A DNA stretch of 47,996 nt from Clostridia bacterium. Its GTDB lineage: Bacteria; Bacillota; Clostridia; Christensenellales; Borkfalkiaceae. The DNA lies in contig JAFZYZ010000085.1 in the NCBI GenBank assembly GCA_017615975.1, forward strand, positions 1 to 47,996. Direction: 5' to 3'. Shown piece by piece: positions 7,046 through 41,293 of the stretch. A model generated the notes under the pieces. The model saw only the letters and a program-made list of their open reading frames with translations. It was not told where the DNA came from and did not search any database. The position numbers and the translations under genes are program-made. Position 1 is the stretch's first letter. Each line of letters begins with the position of its first letter.

Positions 7046-8448
7046 TAAAGCGTTATCCCCGTCTTGTAAAACGCAATTTCTCGTATATCTTCGCTTTTCG
7101 TTCTGTATTCGCCGTTTACGGTTTTAACAAGCAAGTCCAAAAGCCCCTGTTCGTCCATATTATAGGCGTTAAAATCTATCCAGTTATTCTTAAAATCCGA
7201 AATTCTGCCGTTCGACGCTATTTTCATCGTCGGTACGAAAGTAGAAAACGGCGTGCCCCTGCCAGTCGTAAACAAAACTATCTGACACCCGCTTGCCGCA
7301 AGCGCAGTCGCGGCGATAAGGTCGTTCCCCGGTGCGTTTAACGCGGATACCCCACGTTCTTTTAATATTTCGCCGTAATCTAAAACGTCAACGATTTTAG
7401 TACCGCCCGCCTTTTCCACGCAACCCAAAGACTTCTCTTCCAAAGTCGTTATTCCGCCCTTTTTATTGCCGGGGCTGGGGTTTTCGTACACGGGAAAGCC
7501 TTGCTTTATGTAATAATCTTTGAAATCTTCTATCATCTTTTTGTATTTTTCAAAGACTTCTTTATTCTTACACTTATTCATTAAAAGTTGTTCCGCGCCG
7601 AACATCTCGGGAACTTCCGTCAAGATTGCGCTACCGCCAAGCGAAACAACTCTATCCGTAATTTTACCTACAAGCGGGTTTGCCGTAAGCCCCGAATACC
7701 CGTCGCTACCGCCGCATTTTAAGCCTATACACAACTCGGAAAAATCTATTTCTTCGCGCCTATATTCACTCGCTTTTTCAGCAAACTCTTTTATTATATT
7801 TAATCCGTATTCTATCTCGTCCTTTACGTCCTGACAGTTAAAATATTCTATATTATCCCTGTTAAAAGGTTTTAAGTAGTCTTTTATCCCGTCAAGCCCG
7901 TTATTCTCGCAACCAAGCCCCACTATCAGCACGAAACTCGCGTTAGGATTAAGCGCAACGCCGCAAAGAAGTTTCTTTATATTTTCATTGTCAACCCCAA
8001 GTTGACTGCACCCGAACTGATGAGTTAAAGCGTATATCCCGTCTATACTGCCCTTGATATATTTCTGCGAAAGCGTTTCCAGCCTTTTACATACGTTGTT
8101 TACGCAACCGACGGTGGGAATTATATATATTTCGTTCCTTATGCCCGCCCTGCCGACTTTCCTTTTGTATCCCTTAAAAGTCGCTTTCGTTTTAGGCAAG
8201 TCCGCCGCGGAAAAATTATACGAATACTCTGACTTTTCGTCAAGGTGCGATTTTACGTTATGCGTATGCACCCACTCGCCCTTTTTTATATCCGCAGTCG
8301 CTTTCCCTATTATTTCGCCGTATTTGATTACATATTCGCCTTTCGTTATATCTTTTAAGGCAAACTTATGCCCCGCGGGAATATTATCTTTCCCCGCAAG
8401 GCTTATTCCGACGTTATCTTTTTCGTTTATTATTACTTTGTCTTTCAT
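7045..8448 (-). CDS. uxaA: Altronate dehydratase
   Basis: Dehydrates D-altronate to 2-keto-3-deoxygluconate. At 467 aa it carries an N-terminal SAF-like domain (residues about 1-90, with HKFALKDITKGEYVIKYG) and the UxaA catalytic part with the Cys- and Gly-rich motifs TVGCVNN, THQFGCSQLG, VGLGCENN and GLKCGGSDGYSG, expected to hold the metal site. It overlaps the uxaB stop by 4 nt (ATGA) and has no clear Shine-Dalgarno site of its own, which fits coupled translation. Galactarate dehydratase is a relative, but the neighbouring uxaB and uxaC favour altronate. Confidence 0.92.
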   Translation of the reverse strand: MKDKVIINEKDNVGISLAGKDNIPAGHKFALKDITKGEYVIKYGEIIGKATADIKKGEWVHTHNVKSHLDEKSEYSYNFSAADLPKTKATFKGYKRKVGRAGIRNEIYIIPTVGCVNNVCKRLETLSQKYIKGSIDGIYALTHQFGCSQLGVDNENIKKLLCGVALNPNASFVLIVGLGCENNGLDGIKDYLKPFNRDNIEYFNCQDVKDEIEYGLNIIKEFAEKASEYRREEIDFSELCIGLKCGGSDGYSGLTANPLVGKITDRVVSLGGSAILTEVPEMFGAEQLLMNKCKNKEVFEKYKKMIEDFKDYYIKQGFPVYENPSPGNKKGGITTLEEKSLGCVEKAGGTKIVDVLDYGEILKERGVSALNAPGNDLIAATALAASGCQIVLFTTGRGTPFSTFVPTMKIASNGRISDFKNNWIDFNAYNMDEQGLLDLLVKTVNGEYRTKSEDIREIAFYKTGITL

Positions 8449-9827
8449 TTGAGTAAATTTATAGTCCCGCTTAAAATCGCATCAAGGTTCTTTTGCACTG
8501 CGTCCGCAAAACCGTTATACGCCGTCAGATCTTCGCCCCAGATATTCTCGTCTTTCATAAAATCTACGACTTTACCGCCGTTTACGAAATATTCAAGGTA
8601 CGGTATATCGTCCTTTATCTCTATCTTTCTCGTGGGCAACTGAACGTAATACTTCCCGTCTTCTTCCTTCTTTACCGACGTATAAGTCGCCATTAAGTAT
8701 GAAAAACCTACCGTAAGGTTTGCAGGTATCCTGCCGCACTTTTCGTAATAATCCTTAAAACTCGGTAAATCGCGCGCTTTCCACTTGCTTATACTGTTTA
8801 ACGCGATACTCGTTAGTTGATGGTTTAAGTACGGATTGAAAAATCTCTCTATAACGCTGTCGGCAAATTCCGTCGTCGCCGCTATATCGCTTGATACGAA
8901 CGGTATAATTTCATCTTTTAAGGTGTTTTTTACGAAAGACAACAGCGTTTCGTCCGTCATACAGTCGTAAACCGTTTCTTTCCCAAGCCAAAGCCCTGCG
9001 GGCACTAAATTCGTATGACTGCCGTTTAATACTCTCACCTTTCTCTTCTTATAGTATTTGATATCGCCAGTCAGCACCACTTCTATACCGTGCACGCCGT
9101 CCTTTATATAGTCCGCTATATTGCCTTTCTTTTCCACAGCCCATAGCCCGAACGGTTCGCCCACCGACATAAGTCCGTCTTCTTTGCCTATTAAATCCGT
9201 CAGGTGCTTTTTGGTTTCTTCATCACGGGGATAACCCGATACAATTCTATCAACCAGCGTGTTGCAGAAATAGTTTTTCTTATCTATCCACTCTCTAAAC
9301 TCTTTCGGTAAATTCCATAAATCTATATACTTTAACACGCATTTATACAGTTCGTCTGCGTTGTTGTCTATTAGTTCCACGGGCATCATATACAGTCCGT
9401 CAAGCCCCGCGTTAAACCGTTCGTATAAGAACTTTGTAAGTTTAGCGGGGTAAGTTATCCCGTCAAAACCGTTTATATCGTCATTTCCGTTAAAACAAAT
9501 GCCCGCTTCGGTGGTGTTCGATACGACTATTTTAAGGTCTTTATCTTTCGCGAGAGATACGTATCTATCATATTCTCTAAAAGGATCGATAGCGTTATTT
9601 ACGGAATGTATTTCGTAAACGTCTTCCACCGCGCTACCGTTTTTTACGCCGCGCAAAATTATATGATAAATATTGTTTTGCGCCTTGAATTTGTCCAGAT
9701 TACCAAAAGCGATAGGTTTTACGATATTAACGCCGTAATCCCCGCCTTCTTTATTTAACGTGTCGAAATAATAGTCTGCGAAAGTCCTTAAAAAATTACC
9801 TTCTCCGAATTGTATTATCTTTATCAT
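8445..9827 (-). CDS. uxaB: Tagaturonate reductase
   Basis: NADH-dependent reduction of D-tagaturonate to D-altronate. It is a 460-aa member of the mannitol dehydrogenase family: an N-terminal Rossmann start IIQFGEGNFLRTFADYYFD, the C-terminal lysine motif region KVRVLNGSHTNLVPAGLWLG and a downstream FNPYLNHQLTSIALNS helix. GGAG lies upstream of the ATG. The 70-nt gap before it is one of the largest in the operon and contains a TATAAT-like hexamer without a good -35, so a secondary promoter is possible but weak. Fructuronate reductase (UxuB) is the closest alternative; linkage to uxaA argues against it. Confidence 0.93.
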   Translation of the reverse strand: MIKIIQFGEGNFLRTFADYYFDTLNKEGGDYGVNIVKPIAFGNLDKFKAQNNIYHIILRGVKNGSAVEDVYEIHSVNNAIDPFREYDRYVSLAKDKDLKIVVSNTTEAGICFNGNDDINGFDGITYPAKLTKFLYERFNAGLDGLYMMPVELIDNNADELYKCVLKYIDLWNLPKEFREWIDKKNYFCNTLVDRIVSGYPRDEETKKHLTDLIGKEDGLMSVGEPFGLWAVEKKGNIADYIKDGVHGIEVVLTGDIKYYKKRKVRVLNGSHTNLVPAGLWLGKETVYDCMTDETLLSFVKNTLKDEIIPFVSSDIAATTEFADSVIERFFNPYLNHQLTSIALNSISKWKARDLPSFKDYYEKCGRIPANLTVGFSYLMATYTSVKKEEDGKYYVQLPTRKIEIKDDIPYLEYFVNGGKVVDFMKDENIWGEDLTAYNGFADAVQKNLDAILSGTINLLK

Positions 9828-31695: not shown

Positions 31696-34203
31696 TTAAT
31701 CTTTATTCGTGCTTTTCTTTTTTGCAATAAATACGCAGACCGCAGCCAATAACGTAGCGAGTATAATCAATTCCGCACCGCTGCCAAATACGTTGCTGCC
31801 GCAACCGGAGGATTTAGATTCCTGCTTTTTATAAGACGCGTATAAAACGGTGTCTTCGGTTATCGTTTCCCCGTTATACGCTTGAGTAAGTTCTTCATCG
31901 GTAAATAAGCCTTTGAAATCGTATCCGGATTTTTTAAGCAACTCGCTTGCGGCAACCGCAGTATCGTAATCAATAGTCAATACCACGTCGTCGAAGTTAG
32001 CACTCTTAATGGTTATGGTTAACTGTTTAACGTTATATTTAGCAGTCAGAGTTATATCCGACGTAAGAACGTCTTCGCCGAACTTAAATTCTTCCGTACC
32101 GAGATACCAAGCGTCGAATACGAATCCCGTCTTTTCGGGAACTTCGCTAAACGCCGCAACGGGCGTCAACGCGTCGTACTGTTTGGCAGCAATCGCACTA
32201 CCGCCGTCGGTATCGAAAGTTATCGTATATTTTTTAAGTCTGTAAACCGCGTTTGCAATTACGTCGTCTGTGATGGCAACGTCGTCCGCGATATCCCAAC
32301 CGACTGCGTCGTAATGTTCTTTCGCGGGAATATTCGGCGTTTCAACTTCGCCGAACAACGTGCCGTTTAACAAATCGCTTACCGTACCAACGGTTTCGCC
32401 GTCCGCTTTGAAAGTTACGGAAACGTCCGGCAGTTTTTCAAATTCCACTTCGTACGTAATATTCTCCGAAGCGTCTTCAACGGTAAGCAAATACATACCG
32501 TTCACTACTTCGTTGCTTACGTCCGCGCCGCCTACCGTCAAAGCCTTGAACTTATACCCTGCATCGGGAGTTATTACGAAGATAAAGTCGTCGGGTGTTA
32601 AGCTCACGGAATCCCCGTTGTTTGCTATGTTCACACTGCCGTTCGTTATAGGCGCACTCGGATAAAGCACGGCGAGAACGGTTGCGGAAGTTTTAAGCGT
32701 AAAGTCGTCGTTGCTGACTACAAACGTAAGTTCCCCTACTCTATCAAGCGCGTATTCCCAGTCAGCATCGGCAGTTTCGGTTGCTATCAAGTTATCGCCT
32801 TCGTAAATCTTAACAGTTGCAGATTCTATCGCAACGACGTCTTCAGTCGTAAGCGTAAAGTCCGCAAGGGTTATTTTCCTGCCGTAATATAAACCGTCCG
32901 AAACCGTAAAATCAGCGATTTCAACGAGTTTGTCGTCAGTTTTTATCGCCGTATTGAAATCTACAGTCCCCTTGGAAGTATCATCTACAAAATATTCCAC
33001 GGAATAAGCGCCCGCTTTATCGAAATCAAATGTCGTTCCGTCGTAATTTTCAGTAGTTGCACCGTCAGGGTCAGTAATATTTACGGAAAAATCGATAGGT
33101 GCGGTTTCGCCGTTAGCGAAACTAAAACTTACAGGCGCAGGAATAGCGGTATTTCCGCTTGCAATAAGCCCCGACTTCGGTAAACTAACAACTTGGTCAA
33201 AATCGTCAATACCCATTATGCAGAATCTCGTAAACTCGTCGGTACTTCTCTTTGTCGTTCTCATTATACTTACGGAGAGTTTAACCTTATTGTCCGTAAA
33301 TCCGGGGAAATAATGCTCGTCGTCAGCAGAGAAATTTTTGAAATCACGGATATGCACGCCGTTTATAGAAAGCGAACCGTTAGCGTTATCGAATTGTACT
33401 TTTATAGAATTTGCGGACGTTCTCGAGAAGTTTATTTGCGTTTTAGTATGTCCGTATTCTGCGGTGTTCAGATAACAACCGTCATTAGGTTTACCGTCCC
33501 CTCCAACAGCGCCGTCGTGCAAATCACTACCGACTATGCTGAATATAGCGTTTCCGTTATAATTATTAGTATCGAAGCCCGCTTCGCCGATATAAACGTC
33601 ATCTGAAGTGTGGTTGGTCTTTTCCCAAGTGCCTGCTGCAGCCGCTATTATGCTGTCTTTCGTTTGTGTCGCATCCCAGTTAGAATACGCCGCCCAAACA
33701 AACAGCGCGATATAATTATTCGGATTCGACGCGTCTTCTATAATAATCTTAAACCCTTTGTTCTGCCAGTTATCGTTAGTCCCCGGGAAAGCAAGTTCTA
33801 TTAACGTATCGCTTGCCGTATTGTCGGAAATATCGACTACGCCGTTAAACTTAACGCCCGCGGAATATTTTACGCTCGGGAAATTGATGAGCGGCGGGTT
33901 GGTATCGTTAGATAAATCCGTATTATCGACAAGCGCCGCCGTCTTGTTTCTGGTCTGCACCATAACGCCGCTACCGGAAAAGTTGGTATTAGTAAACGTA
34001 CCGTAAGATATATCGTTTACGTAAGCGTCTAACCCGTTGTCGCCGACAGGCGTAAACCATTCGTCCACTATATTTTGGACAGTTTCGTCGTTTGCCATAG
34101 CGCTGGCACGATTTACAGTAGTAAAATTACCTACGCCGAAAGCAGTAAACGCTAACGCAAAACAAGTAAGTAAAGATACTAAAATTTTCTTTTTAGTTTT
34201 CAT
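31696..34203 (-). CDS. Surface protein with repeated beta domain, InlB repeat and anchor
   Basis: 835 aa. The signal peptide ends near TVNRASAMAND. Residues about 48-334 are one copy of the repeated domain found three times in the 1910-aa neighbour, running from WFTPVGDNGLDAYVNDISYG to DEFTRFCIMGIDDFD. Ig-like modules follow, then an InlB B-type repeat at about 654-728 (YTITFDTDGGSAIAAKQYD; FVFDAWYLG) and a second partial one. The C-terminus is KSSGCGSNVFGSG, a hydrophobic helix and AKKKSTNKD, a Cys-containing sorting-like tail matching the next gene's. AAGGAG precedes the ATG. Likely a glycan-binding surface protein; the ligand is unknown. Confidence 0.82.
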   Translation of the reverse strand: MKTKKKILVSLLTCFALAFTAFGVGNFTTVNRASAMANDETVQNIVDEWFTPVGDNGLDAYVNDISYGTFTNTNFSGSGVMVQTRNKTAALVDNTDLSNDTNPPLINFPSVKYSAGVKFNGVVDISDNTASDTLIELAFPGTNDNWQNKGFKIIIEDASNPNNYIALFVWAAYSNWDATQTKDSIIAAAAGTWEKTNHTSDDVYIGEAGFDTNNYNGNAIFSIVGSDLHDGAVGGDGKPNDGCYLNTAEYGHTKTQINFSRTSANSIKVQFDNANGSLSINGVHIRDFKNFSADDEHYFPGFTDNKVKLSVSIMRTTKRSTDEFTRFCIMGIDDFDQVVSLPKSGLIASGNTAIPAPVSFSFANGETAPIDFSVNITDPDGATTENYDGTTFDFDKAGAYSVEYFVDDTSKGTVDFNTAIKTDDKLVEIADFTVSDGLYYGRKITLADFTLTTEDVVAIESATVKIYEGDNLIATETADADWEYALDRVGELTFVVSNDDFTLKTSATVLAVLYPSAPITNGSVNIANNGDSVSLTPDDFIFVITPDAGYKFKALTVGGADVSNEVVNGMYLLTVEDASENITYEVEFEKLPDVSVTFKADGETVGTVSDLLNGTLFGEVETPNIPAKEHYDAVGWDIADDVAITDDVIANAVYRLKKYTITFDTDGGSAIAAKQYDALTPVAAFSEVPEKTGFVFDAWYLGTEEFKFGEDVLTSDITLTAKYNVKQLTITIKSANFDDVVLTIDYDTAVAASELLKKSGYDFKGLFTDEELTQAYNGETITEDTVLYASYKKQESKSSGCGSNVFGSGAELIILATLLAAVCVFIAKKKSTNKD

Positions 34204-34282: not shown

Positions 34283-37200
34283 TTACAAACTAGAAACAAG
34301 TACGTCTCTTTCCACATATTTTATACCGAGATTATTACACATAGTCTTAAACGTCGTCTTATCCGCGCCCGAATAACTAAACTTTATCTGTAAGTATCTG
34401 TAGAAAAGCGATAAATAATCCAAACGTCTGGTAATTTCCGCGTTTCCGCTGACTGCAGCGTATGCGGACGTAAAATATCCTTTTACGGTGTTTACCCAAG
34501 ACGAAGAATATTTACTGCTTGTTACGTCGTCTTTCCCTATGCGGACAGTCGTCGAACCGTAAGCAGTGTTTATCGCGGAAATATAATTCTTAACGTAGGT
34601 TGCCGCCGCACCGTAATAAGCGTCTATAAATTCGTTCATCAAATCGTTGTATGAAAGATAAGTATCCCACATCATTCTGCTTCTGACGTAGTTATCCATT
34701 TCTTCAAACGGAAACAAAGCGTTACCGTTGCCCATAGTAGTACCAATGCCCTGCGCCATAACTTCCATAACGCCGAGAGACTTAAAGTATTCTATATTAT
34801 TCTCTAACTGTTTCCAGAACGGGAAGGGTTCGAGATAATCTGTGAAATCCGAACGGTAATCCCATACGCCGAGATGCGCCGCTTTAGCGTACCAACCGTC
34901 GAAAATAGACTTCCAACTCGTGCTGTTCAAATACGAGACGCTATCATTATAGTTGGACGAATTGTTATACGCTTTATCGTAATACGCAGTGTAAGGACAA
35001 ATACGGACTATAACGTTATCCGCGGCGGTTTGTACCGTAGGCGGAAGCGTGTACGCCATATAAGCGTAAGCCATAAGATAAATTTCACGGGCAGGGCAGT
35101 TAGCCGCCTGCCAGTCTTTAATATCCCCTGCGAGTTTATTTATAAATCTTAAATACACGTCGCTTTTGCCGTTGCCGTAAGAAGAACAAGCCGAACAGGT
35201 ACAATATTTAGAGTTGTCGCCGATACCTATTTCAAATATGGTAGAATAAGCGTTGTTTCCGTCGGTGATAACGGCTTTAAGTTTATCAAGTATGATATCG
35301 TACATACCGTTATCGTTATTATAGGCTTTGGAAAAACAAATCTGTTTAACCTCACCGCTTTCCTTAACGTACCAACTATCGTGAGACGCGCCGTACGTGG
35401 TTGCCTGATTGTAGTTATTCCAAGTACTATCGTAAGGTAAGAAATAAGTCAAAAGACTTTGGTCGTCAAGTTGCCAGGCAAACGGCGTGCCGCCGTCGTA
35501 TCTGCCCGAATTATAAACGGGAGAAGTGTACCAGTTATTTCTTACGTAACGCGAATTCGTATCGTAAAGATGTACGTTGTTATATAACGAACTGCGTTCC
35601 AAAGGAATATTGTTCGTAGCTGCCGCAACCCACTCGTCACGCTGTGTATTGCTTTCAAAATACGCGAATCTCGTAGAAGTACTCACAAGAGAACGGTATT
35701 TGATATCGGGATAATCTTCGTAATCGAAATATTTTAACGACTGCGTAGAACCGCTGTTTATCACCTGACAGTCGTGCGCGTAATATTTATAGCCGAAATT
35801 CTCTTCCAAGAACCTGTAAATGCCGTAATAAACAGAGTAATCGTCTTCGGCGTAAATAACCACGCCGTCGCCGTAAGATTTAATCTTAAAACCGCCCTGT
35901 TCTTTCGTATAATTCATAAGGGAAACTCCCGCTTCTCTTCTGAACGCCGTATTTCCCAAAGAAATATATTTGGAAGTGCTGTTATCGTACGTATCAGTGA
36001 TAGGCAAGGTAACGTCGTAAGAGTCGGATATTATATCCTGTAATTCCTGCGCAGCGGAATTTAAAGTAGTACTTGCGCTGTTGGGAATTAAGATTTTATA
36101 ATCGGAATTTCCAGTGCTTATAATGTTTTTAGACTGCGTAGAAGTTTCCTTACGTTTTACCTGCAACGCTATCTGAAGTTTACCGTCCTGTTCGTACATA
36201 GCAAGGTTGGTGTCGTCCGGAACGTGTCCTTCACCTGCCGTAATAATCGTTCCGTCCCAAGAAAGTGCACGCACTCCGTTAGCACCGGAAACGGTCATAT
36301 ACATAATATTTCCGCTAGACGAATAAGACACGCTGTCTATCGTATAATCTGCGCTACCGGTTGCTTTTTTTTCCCCTAAACCGTTTATTTCAACCACTTG
36401 GTTTAGATAGTGATTATCAAGGAAAGTCTTTTCCGCAGCGGTAGGCGCGTCAACGCCGGTATCGTTATAAGCCGCAAGCGCAACGTCGTAAGCGCTTCTT
36501 GAATTATCCGTTTCGTTATAAGACGCGTAGAAATACGCCTCGGTACTGTCGTAATAAGTAACTTTGACGTAAGAACGTACGGAAAACGCGCGCGCGATAT
36601 TCTTCGCCTGAATATCCGTCATAGTAATATAGAAATAGGTGTCGTTATCATCGTCTTTCTCGTAGTTTTCCGCCGCGACTTTCTTTAAATATCCTGCGGA
36701 TACGTTTTCTACCGTGAATTCATGGTCTTCTATATAATCGGTCGGCGCAACCAACATACCGAACTCGGATACAATATTAACAGTCTCGTCAATATTTTGA
36801 TTTTGCCCCCTTAACCAGCCTTTAAATCTCAAACCGGTACGAGTGCCTAATCTTACCCACGCGCCTGCTGTAGTCCAGAAATGCGCGTAAGCGATATCGT
36901 AAGTAAGGTTTTCGCTACCTATCACCACGGAAGTAAGTTCGCTGATACTATGGAGATCTTCGCCCACCATATAACCTACGACGTATTTGTTATAATCCGC
37001 CATATCAAACAATTCACCGACGTTGCAAGTATCGCCACTTACAACTTTAAACGTTCTGCCGGTAGTGCTGTCCGTTATAGTTTTGTAATTGATAAGCGTC
37101 TCACCGTCGTTAATGATTTTATTTGCAAGAGAACCGTAAGCAACTTTCTGCAAAGAAATGCCGTCGATATTCATTATGCAGAATCTCGTAAATTCGGCAG

Positions 37201-40015
37201 TATTTTTTCTAACCGACCTGAAAACACCGACGGAAACCTTAACTTTACCGTCCGTAAAGCCGTCGAAATAATTGCTACCGCCGTCTGCCGCATAACGCTT
37301 GAAATCACGGACGTGCACGCCGTTTATCGATAACGTACCGTTAGCATAGTCAAATTGTACTTTTATAGTGTTTGCGGACGTTCTCGAGAAGTTTACGCTC
37401 GTGTTAGTGTGTCCGTGTTCTGCGGTATTCAAGTAACATCCTTCGTCACTGTCTTCGCCAAAGTCGCCGTCAACCGCGTCGCCAACTTTAACGAGACGCG
37501 CCGTACCGCCGCTATAATTTTCGGTATCGAAAGCCGCTTCACTTATATAAACCGTTCCGTCTTTTGTCGTTTCTTCCCAAGTGCCTGTCGCGGCGGCTAC
37601 CATGCTGCCACCGGTCGCATCCCCGTTTGCATACGGAGACATTATAAATAACGCAATATATTTACCGGGGGTGGTCGCGTCCTCTATAATTATTTTAATA
37701 CCCCTTGTCTGCCAGTAATCGTCAGTTCCGGGGAAAGCAAGTTCTATTAAAGTATCGCTTGCCGTATTATCGGAAATATCTATAGCCGAATCAAGTTTGA
37801 CGCCGGGTGCATATTTATCGGAAGGCAAATTGATAAGCGCTGAAGAGGTATTAGCACCGCTTGACGGTTGGTTTCTGGTTTCAACCATCAAACCGCCGCC
37901 GTTTATATACGTACCGGTAAATTCACCGTAAGATAAACTGTTGACGTATTGCGTGTCGCCGACTTTGGAAAAACCTAAATAAAGGCTGCTTGCGTCTACG
38001 TAATCTTCATTACCGTCGTAAAGATTTTCTATGCCGTAATAACTGACGTTGTTGCTACCGTCCGCGGCAAACGAATTGCCGTCTATATTCATTATGCAGA
38101 ATCTCGTAAACTCGTCGGTACTTCTCTTCGTAGTTCTCATTATTCCTACGGAGAGTTTGACCTTATTGTCCGTAAATCCGGGGAAATAATGCGTGTCGTC
38201 AGCAGAGAAATTTTTAAAATCACGGATATGCACGCCGTTTATAGAAAGTGTGCCGTTAGCGTTATCGAATTGTACTTTTATAGAATTTGCGGACGTTCTC
38301 GAGAAGTTTATTTGCGTTTTAGTATGTCCGTATTCTGCGGTGTTCAGATAACAACCGTCACTAGGTTTACCGTCCCCTCCAACAGCGCCGTCGTGCAAAT
38401 CATCACCGACTATGCTAAATATAGCGTTTCCTTTATAATTATTAGTATCGAAGCCCGCTTCGTTAACAAAAACGTCGCTTCCGCTTTCAGTCTTTTCCCA
38501 AGTGCCTGCTGCAGCGGCTATTATGCTGTCTTTCGTTTGTGTCGCATCCCAGTTAGAATACGCCGCCCAAACAAACAGCGCGATATAGTTATTCGGATTC
38601 GACGCGTCTTCTATAATAATCTTAAACCCTTTGTTCTGCCAGTTGTCGTTAGTTCCGGGGAAAGCAAGTTCTATTAAGGTTGTACTTGCCGTATTGTCGG
38701 AAATATCGACTACGCCGTTAAACTTAACGCCCGTGGAATATCTTCCCGAAGGGAAATTGATAAGCGGCGGGTTGGTGCCGTTGTCGTTTTCCGTGTGACT
38801 GACAAGTTCCGCCGTCTTATTTCTGGTCTGAACCATAACGCCCGCGCCGGAAAAGTTGGTATTAGTAAAAGTGCCGTAAGATACGTTATTAACATAAGAT
38901 ACCAGTTCACCATCACCTACGGGGGTGAAATTAGAAACGAGCAGGTCTTTATTTATAGTGCTGTAAGACGGAGTCGTTAAATCAAGATTGCTATACGATA
39001 CATTGTTGCTACCGTCCGCGGTAAAATCGTTGCCGTCTATATTCATTATACAGAATCTCGTGAACTCGTCGGTACTTCTCCTCGTAGTTCTTATTATTCC
39101 TACGGAAAGTTTGACCTTATTTCCCGTAAATCCGGGGAAATAATGCGTGTCGTCAGCAGAGAAGTTTTTGAAATCACGGATATGAACGCCGTTTACAGAA
39201 AGCGAGCCGTTAGCGTTGTCGAATTGTACTTTTATAGAGTTTGCGGACGTTCTCGAGAAGTTTACGCTCGTTTTAGTATGTCCGTATTCTGCGGTGTTCA
39301 GATAACAACCGTCATTAGGTTTACCGGTTCCGCCTATCGCACCGTCGTTTGTATCACTACCGACTATGCTGAATATAGCGTTTCCGTTATAATTATTAGT
39401 ATCGAAGCCCGTTTCGCTGACATAAACGTCGCTTCCGCCCTCGGTCTTTTCCCAAGTACCTCCCGCAGCCGCTATTACACTACCGCCTGTCGCGTCCGTA
39501 TTTCCATACGCACTCCAAACAAACAGCGCGATATAGTTATTCGGATTTAACGCGTCTTCTATAATGACCTTAAATCCCCTGTTCTGATAATTATCGTTAG
39601 TCCCGGGGAAAGCAAGTTCTATTAAAGTATCGCTTGCCGTATTGTCGGAAATATCGACTACTCCGTCAAACTTAGCGCCCGCGGAATATTTTACCGAAGG
39701 GAAATTGATAAGCATCGGGTTGGTGGTGTTATCATTATCCGTATTATTGACAAGCGCCGCAGTCTTGTTTCTCGTCTGCACCATTACGCCGCCGCCAGAG
39801 AAGTTGGTATTAGTAAACGTGCCGTAAGATATATCGTTTACGTAATCCACCAAGCCATCGTCGCCGACTGCGGTAAAATAACTTGCAAAAGTGTTTTTAT
39901 TTACCGTGGTTTCATACGCGGACTTTGCGGGAACTATCCCGCTTATGCCTATCGACATACAAAGTGCCGCAATTACAGTCAATAAAGGTAAAAATATTCT
40001 TTTCTTCGTTCTCAT
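34283..40015 (-). CDS. Giant exported protein: three repeated beta domains plus DUF4838 region
   Basis: 1910 aa with signal peptide (to VPAKSAYE). Three copies of a domain of about 285 aa lie at residues about 43-327, 360-647 and 680-955. Each starts with a (V)GD...YVN...SYG(T/E)F core, continues through DNTASDTLIELAFPGT(N/D)D and GCYLNTAE(Y/H)GHT, and ends FTRFCIMNIDG. Residues about 965-1300 are a linker region. A GH67-like N-terminal domain (about 1310-1430, SDYKILIPNSASTTLNSAAQ) leads into a DUF4838 region with GIGDNSKYCTCSACSS near 1608, paralogous to the lipoprotein at 20523-22604. No membrane anchor or sorting tail is seen. It probably joins glycan binding to an enzymatic module. AGGAG precedes the ATG. 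Confidence 0.85.
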   Translation of the reverse strand: MRTKKRIFLPLLTVIAALCMSIGISGIVPAKSAYETTVNKNTFASYFTAVGDDGLVDYVNDISYGTFTNTNFSGGGVMVQTRNKTAALVNNTDNDNTTNPMLINFPSVKYSAGAKFDGVVDISDNTASDTLIELAFPGTNDNYQNRGFKVIIEDALNPNNYIALFVWSAYGNTDATGGSVIAAAGGTWEKTEGGSDVYVSETGFDTNNYNGNAIFSIVGSDTNDGAIGGTGKPNDGCYLNTAEYGHTKTSVNFSRTSANSIKVQFDNANGSLSVNGVHIRDFKNFSADDTHYFPGFTGNKVKLSVGIIRTTRRSTDEFTRFCIMNIDGNDFTADGSNNVSYSNLDLTTPSYSTINKDLLVSNFTPVGDGELVSYVNNVSYGTFTNTNFSGAGVMVQTRNKTAELVSHTENDNGTNPPLINFPSGRYSTGVKFNGVVDISDNTASTTLIELAFPGTNDNWQNKGFKIIIEDASNPNNYIALFVWAAYSNWDATQTKDSIIAAAAGTWEKTESGSDVFVNEAGFDTNNYKGNAIFSIVGDDLHDGAVGGDGKPSDGCYLNTAEYGHTKTQINFSRTSANSIKVQFDNANGTLSINGVHIRDFKNFSADDTHYFPGFTDNKVKLSVGIMRTTKRSTDEFTRFCIMNIDGNSFAADGSNNVSYYGIENLYDGNEDYVDASSLYLGFSKVGDTQYVNSLSYGEFTGTYINGGGLMVETRNQPSSGANTSSALINLPSDKYAPGVKLDSAIDISDNTASDTLIELAFPGTDDYWQTRGIKIIIEDATTPGKYIALFIMSPYANGDATGGSMVAAATGTWEETTKDGTVYISEAAFDTENYSGGTARLVKVGDAVDGDFGEDSDEGCYLNTAEHGHTNTSVNFSRTSANTIKVQFDYANGTLSINGVHVRDFKRYAADGGSNYFDGFTDGKVKVSVGVFRSVRKNTAEFTRFCIMNIDGISLQKVAYGSLANKIINDGETLINYKTITDSTTGRTFKVVSGDTCNVGELFDMADYNKYVVGYMVGEDLHSISELTSVVIGSENLTYDIAYAHFWTTAGAWVRLGTRTGLRFKGWLRGQNQNIDETVNIVSEFGMLVAPTDYIEDHEFTVENVSAGYLKKVAAENYEKDDDNDTYFYITMTDIQAKNIARAFSVRSYVKVTYYDSTEAYFYASYNETDNSRSAYDVALAAYNDTGVDAPTAAEKTFLDNHYLNQVVEINGLGEKKATGSADYTIDSVSYSSSGNIMYMTVSGANGVRALSWDGTIITAGEGHVPDDTNLAMYEQDGKLQIALQVKRKETSTQSKNIISTGNSDYKILIPNSASTTLNSAAQELQDIISDSYDVTLPITDTYDNSTSKYISLGNTAFRREAGVSLMNYTKEQGGFKIKSYGDGVVIYAEDDYSVYYGIYRFLEENFGYKYYAHDCQVINSGSTQSLKYFDYEDYPDIKYRSLVSTSTRFAYFESNTQRDEWVAAATNNIPLERSSLYNNVHLYDTNSRYVRNNWYTSPVYNSGRYDGGTPFAWQLDDQSLLTYFLPYDSTWNNYNQATTYGASHDSWYVKESGEVKQICFSKAYNNDNGMYDIILDKLKAVITDGNNAYSTIFEIGIGDNSKYCTCSACSSYGNGKSDVYLRFINKLAGDIKDWQAANCPAREIYLMAYAYMAYTLPPTVQTAADNVIVRICPYTAYYDKAYNNSSNYNDSVSYLNSTSWKSIFDGWYAKAAHLGVWDYRSDFTDYLEPFPFWKQLENNIEYFKSLGVMEVMAQGIGTTMGNGNALFPFEEMDNYVRSRMMWDTYLSYNDLMNEFIDAYYGAAATYVKNYISAINTAYGSTTVRIGKDDVTSSKYSSSWVNTVKGYFTSAYAAVSGNAEITRRLDYLSLFYRYLQIKFSYSGADKTTFKTMCNNLGIKYVERDVLVSSL
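37150..39885 (-). repeat. Three tandem copies of an approx. 285-codon domain repeat
   Basis: Approximate copies: 39035-39885, 38075-38935 and 37150-37975; a fourth lies in the neighbouring gene at about 33200-34060. Copies 1, 2 and the one in the neighbour share long identical DNA stretches, for example the 20-mer ATTTGCGGACGTTCTCGAGA near 33408 and 38285, and near 39237 with one change. Copy 3 (37150-37975) is more diverged. This points to recent duplication or gene conversion. Confidence 0.85.
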
Positions 40016-40049: not shown

Positions 40050-40223
40050 CTAATTAAAATCGTCCCCGAACGGGTTATCCCCGCCTATGTCGCCTGGCGA
40101 CATAACTATAATATCTCCCACTTTAAAAGCCTTTATTTCTATCAGCGGCGACTTGTAAGGATGAGTTTTATCCGTCAACTCATCCTTAACCGACAAGTTT
40201 GCGTTTTTCAACATCTCTTCCAT
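40050..40223 (-). CDS. 57-aa small protein of unknown function
   Basis: ATG 40221-40223 with AAGGAG exactly 7 nt upstream; stop TAG at 40050-40052. The protein runs MEEMLKNANLSVKDELTDKT, then HPYKSPLIEIKAFKVGDIIV and MSPGDIGGDNPFGDDFN. It has no signal peptide or membrane helix. A basic, beta-prone middle (SPLIEIKAFKVGDII) is followed by a Gly/Asp/Asn-rich acidic tail. The layout recalls small uncharacterised clostridial proteins with a Y-x-S/K-P-x-I/V-x-V/I-x-x-F start and a Gly/Asp tail. It lies between the glycosidase-like gene (41 nt) and the 1910-aa surface-protein gene (34 nt). The good ribosome-binding site and protein-like codons argue it is real. Confidence 0.72.
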   Translation of the reverse strand: MEEMLKNANLSVKDELTDKTHPYKSPLIEIKAFKVGDIIVMSPGDIGGDNPFGDDFN

Positions 40224-40264
40224 TTCCTATCTCCTTCTTTAATATGTAATAAATTTCATTTTTT

Positions 40265-41293
40265 TTACTTTTTTAACACTCTTTTGTAATTAGCGCCTAT
40301 CCTGTCCCAAAGTTTTATCGGATCTTTCGCTGCGCAACTAGTACCAAGCCCGCCGCGATAAGTCCAAGTGCCAAGCCTGTCCACACCCATACTCTCGTAT
40401 AAATCTACCACCTTGTCTATCTGGTCGAAATCTTCCGGCTGGGTGCTATATCCCAAAAGCCACCTTTCCGCATCTTTACCGTATTTGTGCGCCATCTTCA
40501 CCGTTCTTTCGGTTATATTCTTAAAGAAACTCTCCGGTTTCGTCCAGTCTATTATCGTGGATGCAAGCACGTCGAAATACGGACAAGCCGCTACCATTTC
40601 CCAGTTATCGTATCCGCGAAGTTCCGTATTGTAGTATGTCTGACTGGTCGCGTGCACGCATACCGTTATTTCAAGTTCCGGTTTTATCTCTTTCAGCGTC
40701 TTGGAACAGTCGGCAAGCGTCTTTAACGCTTCTCTCCAACGGAAATTCTTTACGTCGTCGTTTAATATCTTCGGCATCTCGTAGCCGTAATAATCTTCAA
40801 ACTTCTTTTTGCACTCCGGACACCTGCAAGCCCAGTCTTCCCCCGCACCGTAAGATATAGCCGTGTTCGCACGCGGCAACGCGTAGTGCGGTTCGTCCCA
40901 GAAAAACCCGTCTATCTCCGTCTCCCGCGCAAGTTTTACGCATATCCCCGTAAAATAATCCCTGAAAGCATTACTCGTAAAACACGCAGCGTTTAAAGTT
41001 TCTCCGGTAAGTGCCGATACCTGACGGTGATGAATATTGTTCTGCAAAAACAAACTAACCTGTTCGCCGCCGAAATATTTGCCTATTCCCCAAGTGTCCG
41101 CTATAACTCTTAATCCGACTTTGTGCCCAGCCTTTACTATCTCGTTGATATTCGGAAACCAGAAATCCATATCGAATTCCGTTATAGCAAGTATCACGGT
41201 GTCGCAACCGTGCGCTTTCATCTCTTCAAAATCTTTCTCCGCGTGTTCTACGTAATTTAATCCGTAATAACTGACCGACGTGTGTTTTATCAT
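40265..41293 (-). CDS. TIM-barrel glycoside-hydrolase-like protein
   Basis: 342 aa, no signal peptide. The pattern is that of a (beta/alpha)8 glycosidase-like fold: strands such as CDTVILAITEFDMDFWF and KVGLRVIADTWGIG, then EIDGFFWDEPHYALPR near residue 130, where the Asp/Glu sit as in GH catalytic strands. A CRCPECKKKFEDYYGYEMP insertion carries a CxCxxC motif. LEITVCVHATSQ and RWLLGYSTQP are later strands. It resembles uncharacterised putative glycosyl hydrolases next to DUF4838 proteins; no GH number can be given. It is the first gene of the long operon. AAGGAG lies 13 nt before the ATG, an unusually long spacing. Confidence 0.75.
   Translation of the reverse strand: MIKHTSVSYYGLNYVEHAEKDFEEMKAHGCDTVILAITEFDMDFWFPNINEIVKAGHKVGLRVIADTWGIGKYFGGEQVSLFLQNNIHHRQVSALTGETLNAACFTSNAFRDYFTGICVKLARETEIDGFFWDEPHYALPRANTAISYGAGEDWACRCPECKKKFEDYYGYEMPKILNDDVKNFRWREALKTLADCSKTLKEIKPELEITVCVHATSQTYYNTELRGYDNWEMVAACPYFDVLASTIIDWTKPESFFKNITERTVKMAHKYGKDAERWLLGYSTQPEDFDQIDKVVDLYESMGVDRLGTWTYRGGLGTSCAAKDPIKLWDRIGANYKRVLKK

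Follow-up and report, generated by a model that had tools for sequence, protein, structure and literature searches.

A short peptide gene beside a giant surface protein encodes a candidate precursor of an LPP-like phosphopeptide system in a genus of gut Clostridia

What does a 57-aa reading frame encode when it stands directly in front of the gene for a giant surface protein and has a recurring leader-like sequence in its N-terminal half? We addressed this question for a locus in genome G000 (1.23 Mb, 129 contigs) of an uncultured gut bacterium; the window, that is, the whole stretch of DNA analysed, spans 47,996 nucleotides and is one entire contig. The initial annotation had proposed an open reading frame at 40050-40223 with a strong ribosome-binding site, a characteristic C-terminal tail and a position upstream of the surface protein. 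The frame proved real, although it lies on the minus strand, where it starts with an ATG at 40223, and a plus-strand reading is meaningless. AAGGAG at 40236..40231 precedes this ATG by 7 nt, the peptide ends as quoted (...DIIVMSPGDIGGDNPFGDDFN), and 34 nt separate its stop from the ATG of a 1910-aa protein. The latter is composed of N-terminal repeats, an internal domain with a G-[LI]-R-F motif and a DUF4838 end. The following features are referred to throughout:

40050..40223, minus: 57-aa peptide gene
40231..40236, minus: ribosome-binding site, sequence AAGGAG, 7 nt 5' of the peptide ATG
40098..40157, minus: leader-type motif Tyr23-Ser42, Y-x-x-P-x-I-E-I...D-I-I-x-x-S
40053..40097, minus: acidic/Gly/aromatic tail, residues 43-57
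34283..40015, minus: 1910-aa secreted protein paired with the peptide
36233..36901, minus: unnamed G-[LI]-R-F domain, residues 1039-1261 of the 1910-aa protein, also present in most other proteins paired with a peptide
34580..35785, minus: DUF4838 domain (PF16126), residues 1411-1812 of the 1910-aa protein
40265..41293, minus: 342-aa upstream neighbour with a weak DUF4434 match

The 342-aa neighbour keeps the same position in two other genomes of the genus, G012 and G067. Further along, an 835-aa neighbour (31696-34203, minus) repeats the 'YVNDISYGTFTNTNFSG' unit of the 1910-aa protein (34283-40015), without a peptide gene noted upstream of the 835-aa frame.

Short reading frames can arise by chance, and the initial annotation had named a lack of homologues, or equal rates of synonymous and nonsynonymous change, as findings that would speak against a gene. 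Homologues exist, with peptide orthologs at the same position in G067 (L076) and G012 (L077). Comparison of the window peptide with the G067 ortholog, which comes from another species of the genus, gave a pS of 0.68 and a pN of 0.17, corresponding to a dN/dS of 0.11; across 37 pairs, many of them saturated, pS was 0.74 and pN 0.35. The gene is thus under purifying selection. A profile built from 28 genus relatives scored above 10 bits in 89 of 31,043 small frames, compared with none of 31,043 reversed frames and 0, 1 and 1 of 31,043 in three shuffles. Neither of the conditions named in the initial annotation holds, and a chance frame is ruled out by the dN/dS value and these decoys.

The 57-aa peptide is one member of a multi-copy family. 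A first search returned a second copy in G000 and more in the genus, and a six-row profile (A1), read up to an E-value of 1, had matches in 33 of the 44 genus genomes; none of 33 family members had a match worth naming in Pfam or NCBIfam. Members share an N-terminal half of the form M-K-K-x-Y-x-x-P-x-h-E-h-x-x-F-x-x-x-D-h-h-x-x-S (h, hydrophobic), followed by a variable tail. Among 83 anchored unique genus members, 68 have Pro at Y+3, 70 have Val, Ile or Leu at Y+15 and 53 have Ser at Y+19; the rest mostly shift the Asp-Ser block by one residue. The Tyr in 82 of 83 is no independent evidence, since Y or F was a condition of the anchor pattern. The corresponding key residues of the window peptide are Tyr23, Pro26, Ile28, Ile38 (Y+15) and Ser42 (Y+19). 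Tails have a median length of 17 residues (range 12-27) and consist of 26% D+E, 15% Gly, 15% aromatic residues and 3% K+R, with Cys nearly absent. The YxxP-type motif pointed us to RiPP recognition elements (RREs). Of the three roles suggested at the outset (surface or assembly peptide, adaptor, modified-peptide precursor), the last agrees best with the data, given a leader of the PqqD-RRE type in the N-terminal half. The initial annotation had missed this leader motif, the near-invariant serine and the existence of a multi-copy family.

The link to surface proteins, proposed from this single locus, is strongly supported across the genus by pairing of the peptides with secreted, domain-bearing proteins. 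Thirty-two of 38 unique profile-selected members immediately precede a gene whose product has a signal-peptide-like N terminus, at a median gap of 13 nt and with some overlaps of 4 nt; by the same crude rule, two lie solely directly downstream of a secreted gene and four fall into neither group. Iterating from the window protein yielded the motif G-A-x-[VI]-R-x(5)-G-[LI]-R-F for the internal domain of the partner proteins, which has matches in 35 of 44 genus genomes. Of 259 proteins called within regions selected by the peptide, 25 have this domain, and 24 of these 25 flank a peptide. A converse and less biased test used regions chosen by the domain (57 regions, mostly around domain matches of 12 genomes, plus a few others). 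Of the 61 domain proteins called here, 39 stood next to a peptide scoring above 10 bits (including one training sequence). No peptide was detected for the other 22, comprising six cut upstream by a contig end and 16 with their upstream region visible. Lower-scoring peptides beside some of these 16 (L173, L195, L196) imply that the true pairing is higher. Genes without the domain according to our local model had an adjacent peptide in only 7 of 330 cases (3/106 secreted, 4/224 other). Four of the seven (L169, L191, L205, L215) are domain proteins that the local model missed, two are opposite neighbours of those same peptides and one (L184) is unrelated. Since the family carries the leader handle of a peptide-modifying kinase system, each such surface protein seems to be accompanied by a small peptide of its own, which is probably phosphorylated.

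The shared domain itself belongs to no named family, despite up to 16 matches per genome in the genus. The relevant stretch of the 1910-aa protein had no Pfam, NCBIfam or PDB sequence match, a search of genome contigs returned no relative, and single-sequence AlphaFold2 gave no usable fold (mean pLDDT 33.5). Two more domain proteins without a detected peptide are encoded in G000, on contigs C96 and C41 (L159, L160), the one on C41 being cut by the contig end.

We then considered which enzymes could act on such a leader. The initial annotation saw no modifying enzyme near the peptide, which is true; a candidate RRE-kinase pair is located on a separate contig, C65. A PqqD-family protein (PF05402, the RRE) occurs in 44 of 44 genus genomes, compared with 3 of 14 control genomes, an HprK-like kinase akin to that of G000 likewise occurs in 44 of 44, and coordinate comparison places the two genes side by side in every genus genome. 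Four loci (L150, L151, L152, L154) share an arrangement in which the HprK-like kinase is followed by the RRE, in most cases by a DUF1846-like protein, and then by groES and groEL, and L158 shows the first three of these; in G000 itself (L150 7654-10147), the kinase (7654-8367) and the RRE (8371-8643) stand beside the DUF1846 protein and groESL. No peptidase, exporter or NTP transferase accompanies the pair there. The G000 RRE found its best PDB matches among lasso/LPP-type structures, namely TbiB1 (E=3e-5), PbaB1 (9x90), TfuB1 and then LppB (9x8z, E=0.068), and its nearest NCBIfam models were the lasso PqqD families, at scores below their cut-offs. Aligned with 9x8z, it retains the equivalents of LppB Asn33 and Asp70; across 33 related RREs, the Asp is present in 32 and the Asn in 31 by pattern or 32 by eye. 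The G000 kinase has no Pfam match, and the H...GxGKS...DD signature is retained in the genus copies inspected, in L143 by eye where the pattern failed. Four genus genomes (G018, G019, G027, G062) encode the pair with neither peptide nor domain found, so the pair may have other substrates.

Whether peptide and RRE travel together more widely can be read from a sample of 297 genomes evenly drawn from the order. A 30-row genus profile (A5), applied with matches to E 0.1, frames of at most 110 aa and starts at profile position 7 or below, hit small frames in 18 order genomes outside the genus. A strong PqqD match (E at most 1e-8) was present in 16 of these 18 genomes versus 9 of 276 others (Fisher p = 3e-18), and with A1 (start at position 6 or below) in 10 of 13 versus 15 of 281 (p = 7e-10), p-values that are optimistic because the sampled genomes are related and that depend on a frame size, start position and PqqD E-value chosen after the tables were seen. 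Peptide-bearing genomes without a strong PqqD match were G046, G081 and G112 for A1, and G046 and G282 for A5, G282 having a weaker match. In about half of the 16 genomes, the peptide shares a contig with the PqqD gene; in the others, it lies on a different one. Domain and peptide occur together in G309 and G082, both with PqqD. Conversely, G160, G272, G206, G271 and G328 have the domain, no PqqD match and no peptide within loci of about 3.5 kb, in some of which one gene end falls outside.

Two published systems combine these elements. According to PMC10368454, lasso peptide leaders carry YxxPxL at positions -17 to -12, needed for binding to PqqD-like B1 proteins; the precursor BsfA has an Ile at -2, and the HprK-like kinase BsfK phosphorylates core Ser3, strongly helped by BsfB1. 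In this register, the Ile falls on Y+15 and the phosphoserine on Y+19, and the Tyr, Pro, Ile, Ile and Ser of the window peptide have the same spacings as in these phosphorylated lasso peptides (BsfA/BsfK/BsfB1; paeninodin). The second system comprises the linear polyphosphorylated peptides (LPPs) of 2026, with the gene set LppA/K/B/S/D/N. As described in PMC13381572, LPP clusters hold a precursor, the HprK-like kinase LppK, the RRE LppB, the signal-peptidase-like LppS, an exporter and an NTP transferase; precursors show the motif YxxPxVLxHQxIxFETxxS, LppB Asn33 and Asp70 hold the leader Pro and Tyr, and LppK phosphorylates core Ser3. The authors of that paper state that LPPs and paeninodins have no known biological role.

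Likeness to the LPP system extends over several components: a YxxP leader in a short precursor with a variable C terminus, the YxxPx[V/L/I] motif with a Ser at core position 3 (Y23, P26, I28 and S42 in the window), a discrete RRE with the Asn33/Asp70 pair and an HprK-like kinase with H, GxGKS and DD. However, HQ and FET are absent from the genus motif YxxPxhEh..F...DVh..S, the serine is at Y+18 in LppA and at Y+19 in most genus peptides, tails measure 12-27 residues compared with a 45-residue core in LppA, and the match of the G000 RRE to LppB itself is the weak one given above. The SpI-like leader peptidase, and likewise the MsbA-like transporter and NTP transferase, are absent beside the pair at L150, the latter two being present in another genus locus, L156, which also has a sub-cut-off match for the peptidase. 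A further difference is that the genus keeps its RRE-kinase pair at one constant site, next to groESL in the inspected genomes, and that several peptide genes per genome are dispersed, every one next to a giant secreted protein. Because two cluster features are lacking at the locus and the full consensus is not matched, we class the system as LPP-like rather than as an LPP member. The NCBIfam HPr-rel-A system shares the pairing of a kinase (TIGR04352) with a PqqD family (TIGR04353); the G000 kinase and RRE match these models weakly, at 17.1 bits against a cut-off of 200 and 16.7 bits against 35. We propose an LPP-like, trans-acting phosphopeptide system for surface proteins. None of the open-licence PMC papers listed by our searches joins such peptides to surface proteins in its title or the opening of its abstract, and the main text of PMC13381572 contains no word beginning with 'surface', 'Clostridia' or 'Ruminococcus'.

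On balance, we consider it probable, if by no means assured, that the 57-aa frame encodes an LPP-like precursor, its RRE- and kinase-dependent phosphopeptide serving the neighbouring surface protein. In this precursor, the N-terminal leader (Tyr23-x-x-Pro26-x-Ile28...Ile38...Ser42) would be followed by a short acidic tail. The YxxP leader would be bound by a stand-alone PqqD-type RRE from another locus of the genome. This RRE would present the peptide to the HprK-like kinase whose gene adjoins its own; by analogy with PMC10368454 and PMC13381572, the kinase may phosphorylate the conserved Ser42. The acidic phosphopeptide could then serve the adjacent secreted protein at the cell surface, a scheme that presumes action in trans, leader removal and peptide export. 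More tentatively, and with the odds somewhat against it, one core RRE-kinase pair might phosphorylate many private peptides in trans throughout this genus of gut Clostridia, one for each giant surface protein.

Other readings account for parts of these data. The peptide might be a small chaperone, adaptor or structural partner that acts unmodified, its likeness to a leader being convergent. Tight pairing with domain proteins, a 12-27-residue tail with many D, E, G and aromatic residues and an operon devoid of modification genes would all suit such a bare peptide; we nevertheless judge it unlikely, as peptide presence tracks PqqD across the order, domain proteins in PqqD-less genomes have no visible peptide and a similar leader precedes unrelated cores in LPP-like and radical-SAM clusters. 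That the frame is a cis-acting leader, regulating or coupling translation of the secreted protein, is what one might expect from the 32 of 38 members just upstream of a secreted gene, with their 13-nt median gap and occasional 4-nt overlaps. Peptide genes are also found directly after the secreted gene, both in the genus (L080, L083, L084, L095, L101) and in other families (L047, L050, L057), conservation resides in amino acids and not nucleotides, and some members stand in PqqD clusters instead, all of which makes cis action quite improbable.

The remaining alternatives accept an RRE substrate and differ in the product. A lasso peptide precursor was already disfavoured and is extremely improbable: the YxxPx[LIV] leader and the V/I at the penultimate leader position agree with it, but the B2 leader peptidase PF13471 is encoded in 0 of 44 genus genomes and, in the Y(-17) register, core position 1 of the window peptide is Val40, not the Gly of lasso peptides. 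The RRE system might also be broader, with the Asp/aromatic tail modified by a further enzyme and the kinase as an accessory; this would explain why tails are constrained in composition and why radical SAM enzymes accompany some relatives in other families (L108, L109). Such a system is improbable, as only 22 of the 44 genus genomes encode SPASM enzymes and the peptide-bearing G000 does not; on the same counts, radical SAM/SPASM enzymes were rejected as a genus-wide modifier.

If the tentative genus-wide reading of one pair serving many private peptides is true, an LPP-like RiPP system would be a maturation or assembly device for surface proteins and not a source of secreted bioactive compounds. 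The fixed partnership of peptide and surface protein offers a concrete answer to the question of LPP function that can be put to the test, namely a need for the phosphopeptide in display, assembly or binding of the neighbour, and provides a first context for the unnamed multi-copy G-[LI]-R-F domain.

Related loci show the same components in more compact arrangements. Within the genus, L156 (G024) has a second RRE in an LPP-like cluster of ABC transporter, 127-aa precursor, RRE, SpI-like peptidase (a sub-cut-off TIGR02228 match), HprK-like kinase and NTP_transf_5. Its precursor, which was not used in building the profile, scored 16.9 bits with the genus-only profile and carries the motif P-x-LEV..F..DDVIATS; it lacks the Tyr, and the L156 RRE lacks the Asp by eye. 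In a kinase scan of named genomes, an RRE was adjacent in 47 of 80 cases (the best 80 of 111 relatives), and among these best 80 the nearest kinase relatives came from uncultured Clostridia, many from ruminant guts. The cultured species Ruminococcus flavefaciens FD-1 brings all the parts together at a single locus (L349, 1070-8717). An 888-aa secreted protein is followed there by a 30-aa peptide (MQNYVEAELQIVAFDAEDVITTSIIDLGED) and by LPP-like machinery, with kinase, RRE, a SpI-like peptidase called by likeness, an extra gene, an ABC transporter and an NTP-transferase-like gene in a row; L350 resembles it. The G-[LI]-R-F domain of the genus is absent from the 888-aa protein, and a relationship between a repeat in it and this domain was not supported by profile comparison (hhalign probability 0.1%).

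Variants of the arrangement were also observed elsewhere. At L330 (2411-8689), a secreted protein and a peptide with a D/C/G tail are accompanied by a possible radical SAM enzyme of 451 aa, an HprK-like kinase and SpI-like and NTP-transferase-like genes, with no RRE detected by our RRE model. Two loci of a different family in the order, L109 (4071-10783) and L108 (9106-14165), encode precursors whose leader is similar, the precursors of L109 being Cys-rich, together with a radical-SAM-like enzyme, an HprK-like kinase, PqqD and an ABC transporter.
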